A DNA stretch of 64,000 nucleotides, from assembly GCF_000024845.1 (NCBI RefSeq), contig NC_013501.1:2584874-2648873 (forward strand), given 5' to 3'. Numbering within the stretch: position 1 is the first letter of the stretch; each line of letters opens with the position of its first letter. This DNA comes from Rhodothermus marinus DSM 4252. GTDB taxonomy: Bacteria > Bacteroidota > Rhodothermia > Rhodothermales > Rhodothermaceae. Below, one piece after another: positions 19,489-22,232 of the stretch. Below the pieces are notes generated by a model. It worked only from the letters and a program-made list of their open reading frames with translations. It was not told where the DNA came from and searched no databases. A program made the translations under genes and the position numbers.

Positions 19489-20442
19489 ATGCACGCGGCG
19501 CGTCCGACCCTGAGCCGACTGGAACTGCGGTGCCCACCGCTTCCCCAGACGCTGGTGGAAGCGATGAAATTGCTCAACCGGCCCGATCAGCTCGAAGTGA
19601 AGCCGATCACCCGGCTGGTGGAGCGCGACCCCGTCGTGGTGGCCCGCCTGCTTCAGATCGTCAACTCGGCCTACTACGGGCTGCGCCGCACGGTCAGCAG
19701 CGTCGAACGCGCCGTGGTACTGCTGGGCCCCGTCAGCGTGGCCGGCATCATCGTGGGCATGCACATGCTGCAGTTGCGTACCACGCTGCCCGGTTCGGCC
19801 ATGGCCTGCTTCAATCGCCTGGCCCAGCACTGCCAGGCCACCGCCTTTCTGGCCCGCCACCTGCTCGAAACGGTCCTCCCCCGCCTGAGCGGCCAGACGA
19901 GCGTGGGCTTTACGGCCGGCCTGTTGCACGATTTCGGCAAAATCATGCTGATCTACAACTTCCCCCAGGAAGCCGTCGGCTTCTACGAACAGCAACGTCT
20001 GCAAAACGAAGTGCAGGCCCGCGACGAGCGCCACCTGGAGCAGCTCCTGTTCGGCTGCGACCACACCGAAGCCGGCGAATACGTGGCGCGTAAGCTGAAC
20101 TTCCCCGATGTGCTCGTCGATGTGATCCGCTACCACCACGTGCCCCACCAGACGCCCGCTACCAGCGAGGCCTACATGATCACGCCGGCCGTGGCCGTGG
20201 CCGACCTGGTCGCCCGCACCATGGGTTACGCCTTCACGCATCCGCTGACGCCGGAGCAGTGCCTGGAGCACCCGGCCTGGCGACTCCTGCAGCAGCGTTA
20301 CAACCTGAGCGACTGGACCCCCCGAAGCCTGCTGACTCACCTGCAGGAGCAGCAGGAATTTCTGGATCAGCATGTGCAACACCTGAGCCTCCCCAACCCG
20401 CCCCAGCGTAACCGACGTGTTCTGTCAACTACCCACGACTGA
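19489..20442 (+). CDS. HDOD domain protein, 3' end altered by a mobile element
   Basis: The 317-residue protein has an N-terminal HDOD domain (LVERDPVVVARLLQIVNSAY, residues 42-61; YGLRRTVSSVERAVVLLGP, residues 62-80). HDOD proteins are HD-like signalling proteins that often lack phosphodiesterase activity. Here some HD-type residues occur (FTAGLLHDFGKI, HHVPHQTPA), so weak enzymatic activity cannot be excluded. The last residues (STTHD) and the stop codon lie inside the terminal hairpin of the TnpB element at 20432-20451. The native C-terminus was therefore probably different. The gene is otherwise in series with the flagellar operon, where HDOD proteins may signal to motility. Confidence 0.85.
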   Translation: MHAARPTLSRLELRCPPLPQTLVEAMKLLNRPDQLEVKPITRLVERDPVVVARLLQIVNSAYYGLRRTVSSVERAVVLLGPVSVAGIIVGMHMLQLRTTLPGSAMACFNRLAQHCQATAFLARHLLETVLPRLSGQTSVGFTAGLLHDFGKIMLIYNFPQEAVGFYEQQRLQNEVQARDERHLEQLLFGCDHTEAGEYVARKLNFPDVLVDVIRYHHVPHQTPATSEAYMITPAVAVADLVARTMGYAFTHPLTPEQCLEHPAWRLLQQRYNLSDWTPRSLLTHLQEQQEFLDQHVQHLSLPNPPQRNRRVLSTTHD

Positions 20443-21591
20443 AGTCATGGGCTTGTAGCTGCTCTTTGACCCATTCCGATTCTGACCATGCAGAACCGTC
20501 AGGACACTGGCGAGCGCTACTTCGGGACGGTTGACAACGCCCCCGAGAGCAATGTTAATTGCGCCAACCACATCGGCGTTGGCTTCCAGCCCGCACAGGC
20601 GACAGACAAACTCGCTCTGGCTCTTGCGGTTGGCTTTCTCCACGTGCCCACAGACCGGGCATCGCTGCGAGGTGTAACGGGGATCAATCAGCTCGAAGGG
20701 CACCCCGGCAAGGGCGCACTTGTACGCGATTTTGGTGCGCAAATCGTGGAACGCCCAGCGGTGGATTCTTCTGCGCTGCGATTTGTTTCGAGCACGTACC
20801 CTTTTACGAATACCGCTGAGGTCTTCGAGCCGGACACCCTTACCCTCGGCGGCAGCCCGGTCTACGATACGGCGACTGATGGTGTGGTTGATCGACTGCT
20901 GGAAGCGCCGCTCCCTTCCCGAGAGCCGTTTCAGGACGCGCTTTGCGCCCCTCGTGCCTTTTCGCTGGAGGGAGCGGCGGGTTCTTTCATACCGAGCACG
21001 GACCCGCTCTATCTGGTCGCCGCTGAACACCGTGCCGTCGCTCAGCGTGGCAATGCTCGCGATTCCAAGGTCGACGCCAATCCACCCGTGCTCATCTTCA
21101 GGTGGGGGCGTCTCTACGTTAATGTGGATACCGATGTAGTAGTCTCCTTGCCGCGTCTTCCAGACCACGGCGCTGGTCGGCTTCCTACTGCTGAGAAGCC
21201 GCTTCTGATAAGCTCCAACTGCAATCGGAACGCGAATCCGTCCCTGTACTGTGGAGAGGCTGACCGTCCAGTCGGCTTCTCGGAAGGAGAAGATGCGGGC
21301 GTCGTAGTCGATGCTTGTCGGGCGAACGGTGCTGTTCCTGCGCTCCTTGATCTTGAGGATACTCGCTGCCCGAGCGATAGCACGCACGGCGAGGTTGGCT
21401 GTAAGACCATGCCTTGCTCTGAGGTCGCTGTAGCAGACGCGGTGGATACGAATGTTCGACGTGGTATTCAGTCTTCGACCGACGGCGATTGCGTCATTGC
21501 ACGCGGCAGCAAACGCTCGCATGGTGGTGTCAAGCGCCTCTCGCTGCTCCTTAGAGAGGACCAGTTTGCATTTGACCGTGAGCGTCTGCAT
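20425..21591 (-). CDS. tnpB: TnpB RNA-guided nuclease of an IS200/IS605-family element
   Basis: TnpB proteins are RNA-guided DNA nucleases, ancestors of Cas12, that cut next to a short motif using an RNA made from the element's right end. All three RuvC catalytic residues are here: Asp174 in GVDLGIAS, Glu256 in RLEDLSG and Asp340 in ANADVVGAINIA. The zinc finger CPVCG...CRLCG lies between. Length is 388 residues from the ATG at 21591, where the conserved N-terminus (QTLTVKCKLVLSKEQ) begins; a further upstream start adds 22 unlikely residues. The last codons read through the terminal hairpin. It appears intact. The matching guide RNA should end at the right border near 20424. Confidence 0.93.
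   Translation of the reverse strand: MQTLTVKCKLVLSKEQREALDTTMRAFAAACNDAIAVGRRLNTTSNIRIHRVCYSDLRARHGLTANLAVRAIARAASILKIKERRNSTVRPTSIDYDARIFSFREADWTVSLSTVQGRIRVPIAVGAYQKRLLSSRKPTSAVVWKTRQGDYYIGIHINVETPPPEDEHGWIGVDLGIASIATLSDGTVFSGDQIERVRARYERTRRSLQRKGTRGAKRVLKRLSGRERRFQQSINHTISRRIVDRAAAEGKGVRLEDLSGIRKRVRARNKSQRRRIHRWAFHDLRTKIAYKCALAGVPFELIDPRYTSQRCPVCGHVEKANRKSQSEFVCRLCGLEANADVVGAINIALGGVVNRPEVALASVLTVLHGQNRNGSKSSYKPMTSVVGS
20432..20451. repeat. Right-end hairpin of the TnpB element
   Basis: An 8-bp stem with one mismatch and loop TGAA. It encodes the last residues of TnpB on the minus strand and the last codons and stop of the HDOD gene on the plus strand. Confidence 0.75.
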
Positions 21592-21723
21592 GGCGGCAAA
21601 CGTTTGTGGGAAGGTATTATGCGCTGGTGTCAACGGTATGTCATGGGTATGGGGCAATTCCTTCTATGTTGTAGGTTTCCCGGCTTGAATCATTGCGATG
21701 ATTTGAGTCCAAAGGCGGCTCCT

Positions 21724-21743
21724 CCCACGGCTAAAGCCGTGGG
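21724..21743. repeat. Left-end hairpin of the TnpB element
   Basis: A perfect 8-bp stem CCCACGGC/GCCGTGGG with loop TAAA, typical of IS200/IS605-family ends. It lies upstream of tnpB. Confidence 0.8.
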
Positions 21744-21776
21744 TTTCCGCCGCTTTGAATTCAAAACACTACCGTC

Positions 21777-22232
21777 ATGAAGCTACTACTGATCGAACCC
21801 TCCCAGCTCCGCTGCCGCATCAGCAACCTGCTGCGGCTGGGCGGCATCGAGGACGTCACCGAAGCGACGAGCAGCACCGAAGCGCTCCGGCTGCTGCAAA
21901 AGCAGGTGGTCGATCTGCTCCTCATCGGGCCCACCGTAACGGATCCCTCCGGCCTGGAACTCCTGCGTCGCGTGCGCCAGATGGAAGGCCACGAAGACAC
22001 GGCCGCACTGATCTTTCTGGACATGCCCACCGACGAACTCGTGCTGGAAGCGGCCGAACTGGACGTGCAGGGCATCATCGTGGTGCCTTTTGAAGACGAC
22101 TACCTGCTCTATCGCGTGCGCGAGACGCTGCGCAAGCTGCGCCAGCGCCGACAGCAGGCCGAAAAGCCCGCCTACCGCAAGCGCCTGCACCTGGTTATCA
22201 CTTCTACCCCCGGCCAGTCCTCCACGTCGTAG
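21777..22232 (+). CDS. Degenerate (pseudo-)receiver domain protein
   Basis: This 151-residue protein folds like a CheY receiver, judged by the spacing of its hydrophobic strands (MKLLLIE, VDLLLIG, TAALIFLD, VQGIIVV). The key residues are gone. The phospho-acceptor Asp is Gly in LLIGPTVTD, the acidic pair is reduced to one Glu, the Thr/Ser of strand 4 is Asp (FLDMP) and the Lys-Pro of strand 5 is Val-Pro. It cannot be phosphorylated in the normal way and probably acts by protein binding. It was likely the last gene of the flagellar operon before the TnpB element arrived. Confidence 0.8.
   Translation: MKLLLIEPSQLRCRISNLLRLGGIEDVTEATSSTEALRLLQKQVVDLLLIGPTVTDPSGLELLRRVRQMEGHEDTAALIFLDMPTDELVLEAAELDVQGIIVVPFEDDYLLYRVRETLRKLRQRRQQAEKPAYRKRLHLVITSTPGQSSTS

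Follow-up and report, generated by a model that had tools for sequence, protein, structure and literature searches.

A TnpB-only IS200/IS605-type element supplies the stop codon of an HDOD gene in a flagellar operon of Rhodothermus marinus

Elements of the IS200/IS605 family such as ISDra2 and IS608 move by peel-and-paste, in which a single strand is inserted 3' of a short motif without target duplication (PMC8612924). ISDra2 of Deinococcus radiodurans has a RuvC-bearing TnpB, subterminal hairpins and a pentanucleotide target that is not duplicated (PMC8612924), all of which it has in common with the element described here. Its target, however, is TTGAT, whereas the present element uses TTCAT, has no tnpA in either the element or the genome, and lies at a stop-start overlap. 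IS608 of Helicobacter pylori likewise integrates 3' of a fixed short motif without duplication, but its motif is TTAC and it carries tnpA, in contrast to the TTCAT motif and the missing tnpA of the present element. Autonomous members of the family carry tnpA, and its absence is usual for TnpB-only members. As for IS1341-type TnpB-only elements, which consist of a lone tnpB between two hairpin ends and presumably move in trans, no feature was found that separates the present element from them, and going by the group name we take it to belong there.

The locus lies in a stretch of 64,000 nucleotides (the window) of the R. marinus DSM 4252 genome, which comprises 3,386,737 bases in two contigs (3,261,604 and 125,133). 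The gene order is late flagellar genes, a TPR gene, the HDOD gene, the element, a receiver-domain gene and a sodium:solute symporter gene. Among the late flagellar genes, FlgI and FlgK were assigned by reading the open reading frames, a FlgJ-like gene by a family profile match, and a flagellin-domain, FlgL-like gene by Pfam. Coordinates are given in Table 1.

Table 1. Features at the HDOD/receiver junction (positions within the window)
Feature	Position	Strand	Basis
HDOD-domain gene, 317 aa	19489..20442	+	Pfam HDOD E 4e-41; orthologues 310-312 aa
TnpB-only IS200/IS605-type element, 1353 bp	20424..21776	-	six empty sites; copies L036 and L002
tnpB, 388 aa, ATG at 21591	20425..21591	-	NCBIfam guided_TnpB; RuvC and zinc-ribbon residues
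Right-end (RE) hairpin, expected 3' part of omega/reRNA	20424..20460	-	fold z -2.5
New HDOD stop TGA, element-supplied	20440..20442	+	codon reading
Expected guide AGAACACGTCGGTTAC, 16 nt 3' of RE	20408..20423	-	analogy with ISDra2 reRNA (PMC8612924)
Left end (LE), long imperfect hairpin and 5' tail GACGGTAGTGTTTTGAATTCA	21700..21776	-	fold z -5.1
Target/TAM TTCAT, reverse complement of ATGAA	21777..21781	-	directly 5' of LE here and in L036
Receiver-domain (CheY-like) gene, 151 aa	21777..22232	+	Pfam Response_reg E 7e-9; orthologues 135-151 aa
Long antisense open frame, HDOD frame	20488..21780	+	no Pfam match; taken as non-coding

Structure and class of the element

The TnpB protein matches NCBIfam guided_TnpB (E 4e-63, score 214 against a cutoff of 100) and Pfam Cas12f1-like_TNB and OrfB_IS605, and it aligns to solved TnpB/Cas12f chains. 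The RuvC residues D, E and D are intact (motifs GVDLG, LEDLS and NADVVG), as are the zinc-ribbon cysteines. In the orientation of tnpB the left end lies at 21776 and the right end at 20424, with a subterminal hairpin at each, and the terminal sequences GACGGTAGTG and TAGTTGAC differ, so that there are no terminal inverted repeats. The tnpB gene reads through the right-end hairpin, and its TGA (20425-20427) stops 1 bp before the element ends.

Both boundaries are confirmed by copies at other sites. The closest copy (L036, in the sister genome G002) shares both ends and aligns over positions 1-1353 with 93% identity, and the right end is also common to the plasmid copy L002. Near-complete copies have a right end reading ...GGTAGTTGAC, and the right-end motif GCAGCTACAAGCC...GGTAGTTGA is kept in five copies. 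L002 aligns only to 21754, which leaves over 22 bp (21755-21776) that resemble host spacer; because the same 22 bp occur in L036 and in the truncated plasmid copy L004/L117, they belong to the element. The left-end tail given in Table 1 is likewise common to L036 and L004/L117. In tnpB orientation the left end is preceded by CTTCAT at this site, by TTTCAT in L036 and by ATGCAT in the truncated copy L004, whose TAM deviates (TGCAT).

The element itself carries no tnpA, and a profile search for Y1 TnpA (PF01797) found none in the window genome or in G002, the holder of the closest copy, although the control genomes did give matches. An IS607 origin was considered and rejected, as the 1353 bp hold only tnpB and no serine recombinase or other family match. 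The guided_TnpB protein with RuvC D-E-D, the hairpin ends without terminal inverted repeats, the absence of target duplication and the insertion 3' of a fixed motif of 4-5 nt (TTCAT) place the element in the IS200/IS605 type as a TnpB-only member, that is, a known kind of element with a typical insertion. Since the insertion is precise, 3' of a pentanucleotide and without duplication, and since the ends form hairpins, single-strand peel-and-paste fits.

Several further copies were observed. L002, on the R. marinus plasmid (contig C2, about 88,465-89,796), is without the outermost 22 bp of the left end and adjoins a HicA-like frame. L004, on the same strain's own plasmid, is a truncated chimera in which a window-type left end (92%) is joined to the N-terminal portion of a tnpB of the L003 type (92% identity across 160 aa), and a copy of the L004 type (L117) is present in pRHOM17201, a plasmid of R. 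marinus SG0.5JP17-172. Rhodothermus phage RM378 holds a decayed copy (L116, 2447-3572) with a TnpB about 91% identical and a broken frame; its left end is lost, and it is fused to a phage reading frame. The phage is a possible vehicle of the element between strains. L038, in G002, is a TnpB element that lies within a PIN-domain-like gene and breaks it, in the sense direction. A genome-collection scan for close copies returned only relatives of at most 49% identity, and a phylum-wide search gave none outside Rhodothermus except L054 (79%, from the order search).

Empty sites and the altered end of the HDOD gene

The comparison set consists of all six other Rhodothermus genomes examined, each a different species from R. 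marinus, and an HDOD orthologue is present in every one. The sister proteins (310-312 aa) end at a TGA inside an ATGA that overlaps the receiver ATG (6/6), and the precise 1353 bp are absent at all six. Removing 20424-21776 from the window leaves CGTGTTCT followed directly by ATGAAG, a position that agrees with the sister sequences. The joined flanks fit the six empty sites without target duplication and without loss of host bases, the insert lying between CT and ATGA. The earlier note had reasoned that an element length divisible by three would make an ATGA overlap the original HDOD stop; with 1353 bp inserted (3 x 451) and six empty sites at hand, this is indeed where the gene ended. The divisibility is a coincidence of the window copy, since the sister-species copy L036 measures 1351 bp. 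The region named at that stage was 20424 to 21780; the element itself occupies 20424-21776 and stops just before the ATG.

The HDOD reading frame now ends CGT GTT CTG TCA ACT ACC CAC GAC TGA. From the third base of Leu312 onward, through STTHD to the TGA, the sequence is the element's; everything before it, codons 1-311 plus two bases of codon 312, is ancestral. The last ancestral Leu codon thereby changed from CTA to CTG, with the residue the same. The TGA sits in the loop region of the right-end hairpin; in elements of this kind a tail stop comes about where the loop reads CTGAAG or CTAAAG on the strand opposite tnpB. HDOD and tnpB overlap tail to tail by 18 bp. The earlier claims that the final HDOD residues and stop come from this hairpin, and that tnpB on the opposite strand ends in it too, are thus borne out, together with the claim that TGA 21778-21780 overlaps the receiver ATG (21777-21779) in the HDOD frame. 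An unchanged HDOD end at empty sites, named in the earlier note as evidence against it, was looked for in the six sister species, and the ends differ.

Beyond its stop at 20440, the frame of HDOD meets one more stop (20467) and is then open to TGA 21778-21780. The 430-aa antisense frame opposite tnpB (20488-21780) ends in this way at the receiver's ATGA; it has no family match in Pfam and is taken as a chance, non-coding frame. The remaining two frames entering the right end would add 10 or 36 residues. The HDOD extension falls at a terminus that is already slightly variable between species. For HDOD and the receiver gene, dN/dS is about 0.05-0.14 in all close comparisons including the window genome; against the nearest sister species it is about 0.1, much as it is from one sister species to another. 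Both genes are still under purifying selection, and neither is visibly decaying. The receiver ATG is unchanged, and its overlap with the HDOD stop is gone.

Three other explanations of the locus were weighed. TnpB might have been domesticated as a nuclease-dead, RNA-guided repressor of the flagellar operon, as TldR regulators of this kind, in literature from 2024, reportedly act on flagellin genes. The position of tnpB inside a flagellar operon and an expected guide antisense to HDOD would suit such a role. With RuvC D, E and D all kept, the element missing from the flagellar operon of each of the six sister species, and further copies at unrelated sites, it is, however, very improbable. Scarcely credible is the view that the element is an IStron, spliced out by a group I intron so that HDOD and the overlap are restored. 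IStrons are IS605-type elements joined with introns (PMC4227781), which gives this view its appeal, but an Rfam scan of the element found no group I intron down to E = 1, its single match being a sub-threshold riboswitch. That the present HDOD stop predates the insertion, the similarity being an alignment accident, has next to no chance of being correct: no support for it was found, the six orthologues end at ATGA, so that the empty sites refute it, and the present stop lies inside sequence common to element copies elsewhere.

Start-codon junctions of this and other elements

The receiver gene begins with ATGAA, whose reverse complement is TTCAT, so an insertion abutting a start codon is to be expected. 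Two annotated plasmids hold 47 ATGAA sites outside coding sequence, of which 16 are CDS starts and 5 are stop-start overlaps. L036 abuts the ATGAAA start of an RNase II-like gene; in Meiothermus, element L124 lies directly before an annotated start (ATGAGC). Beside L036 (around 1447 and 2798), 23 bp that separate two ATGAA motifs in the sister sequence of G004 are missing, and with this loss it was rejected as a second clean start-codon case. L054 appears flush with an ATGAAA start and was left out of the count, its left boundary having no empty site.

A second, independent element in the R. marinus genome, L003 (1397-2661, contig C1 about 1,390,984-1,392,248), occupies the same site as L040 in G002. 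The L003/L040 elements resemble the window element in their near-identical right-end hairpin, in the frame of the tail stop and in ending a host gene, but their TnpB is 41% identical, their motif is TCAC/TTAC-like, and the left flank of L003 is deleted. L003 lies at the end of an MNT nucleotidyltransferase gene, which now closes with ...VVAV-SATHD-TGA and so uses the same element frame as the STTHD-TGA tail of HDOD. Of 15 MNT loci in relatives, 10 show the gene ending at ATGA, and a HEPN-type frame follows in most. Beside the left end of L003 most of the partner HEPN gene appears to be gone, and, as the sequence reads, a HEPN-like remnant seems to persist beyond it.

These junctions could be taken to mean that TnpB elements with a TTCAY motif favour stop-start overlaps and bring along a substitute stop, in frame, by which the gene upstream is spared. 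The same-frame SATHD-TGA of L003/L040, in a gene normally ending at ATGA, and the start codons abutted by L036 and L124 speak for this. Against it, 16 of 47 background sites are starts, so that such junctions are expected once gene-killing insertions have been lost, copies L038, L039 and L002 lie inside genes, and the in-frame stop is missing from the right ends of the relatives L055, L057 and L073. Since some relatives lack it, the tail stop is not a fixed property. On balance this explanation seems unlikely, and in view of the background count no particular liking for overlaps was assumed. The insertions are few, and the motif together with the loss of gene-breaking events accounts for the pattern; a real preference may exist. 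Among the papers searched, nothing turned up on a TTCAT motif or on TnpB in connection with start codons. Also rather unlikely is the idea that TnpB elements with a motif complementary to RTGA use operon overlaps and starts as low-cost sites and so spread without breaking genes, the right end handing the gene before it a short tail of standard form and a stop.

Proposed course of the insertion and its consequences

With high confidence, the present arrangement results from single-stranded DNA insertion of an IS200/IS605-type, TnpB-only element 3' of TTCAT on the antisense strand, at the HDOD/receiver ATGA overlap of the flagellar operon. TnpA acting in trans would have moved the element. HDOD is now read into the right end and halts at the hairpin TGA, with five residues added after the same Leu. 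The receiver gene keeps its ATG, now preceded by element sequence and unjoined from the HDOD stop, and has likely lost its translational coupling to HDOD. The operon mRNA would carry 1.35 kb antisense to tnpB. All these effects on expression are predicted from the gene arrangement; a scan of the element's left end for an outward sigma-70-type promoter recognised none.

If TnpB is active, AGAACACGTCGGTTAC is, by analogy with ISDra2, expected to be the element's RNA guide, antisense to the 3' end of HDOD, and its target would be the element-free junction TTCAT-AGAACACGTCGGTTAC. Production of this RNA and cutting by TnpB are presumed; TnpB with the guide would cut element-free alleles that carry TTCAT and a guide match, which may help the element's retention. 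The three nearest sister species checked have 3-4 mismatches to the 16 guide positions.

The locus is a fully resolved case in which a TnpB element edits the end of a host protein and removes a stop-start overlap with both genes left intact. The reverse complement of its motif, ATGAA, makes start codons natural landing sites. The case is relevant to the annotation of C-termini beside such elements and to the question of how such elements stay harmless.
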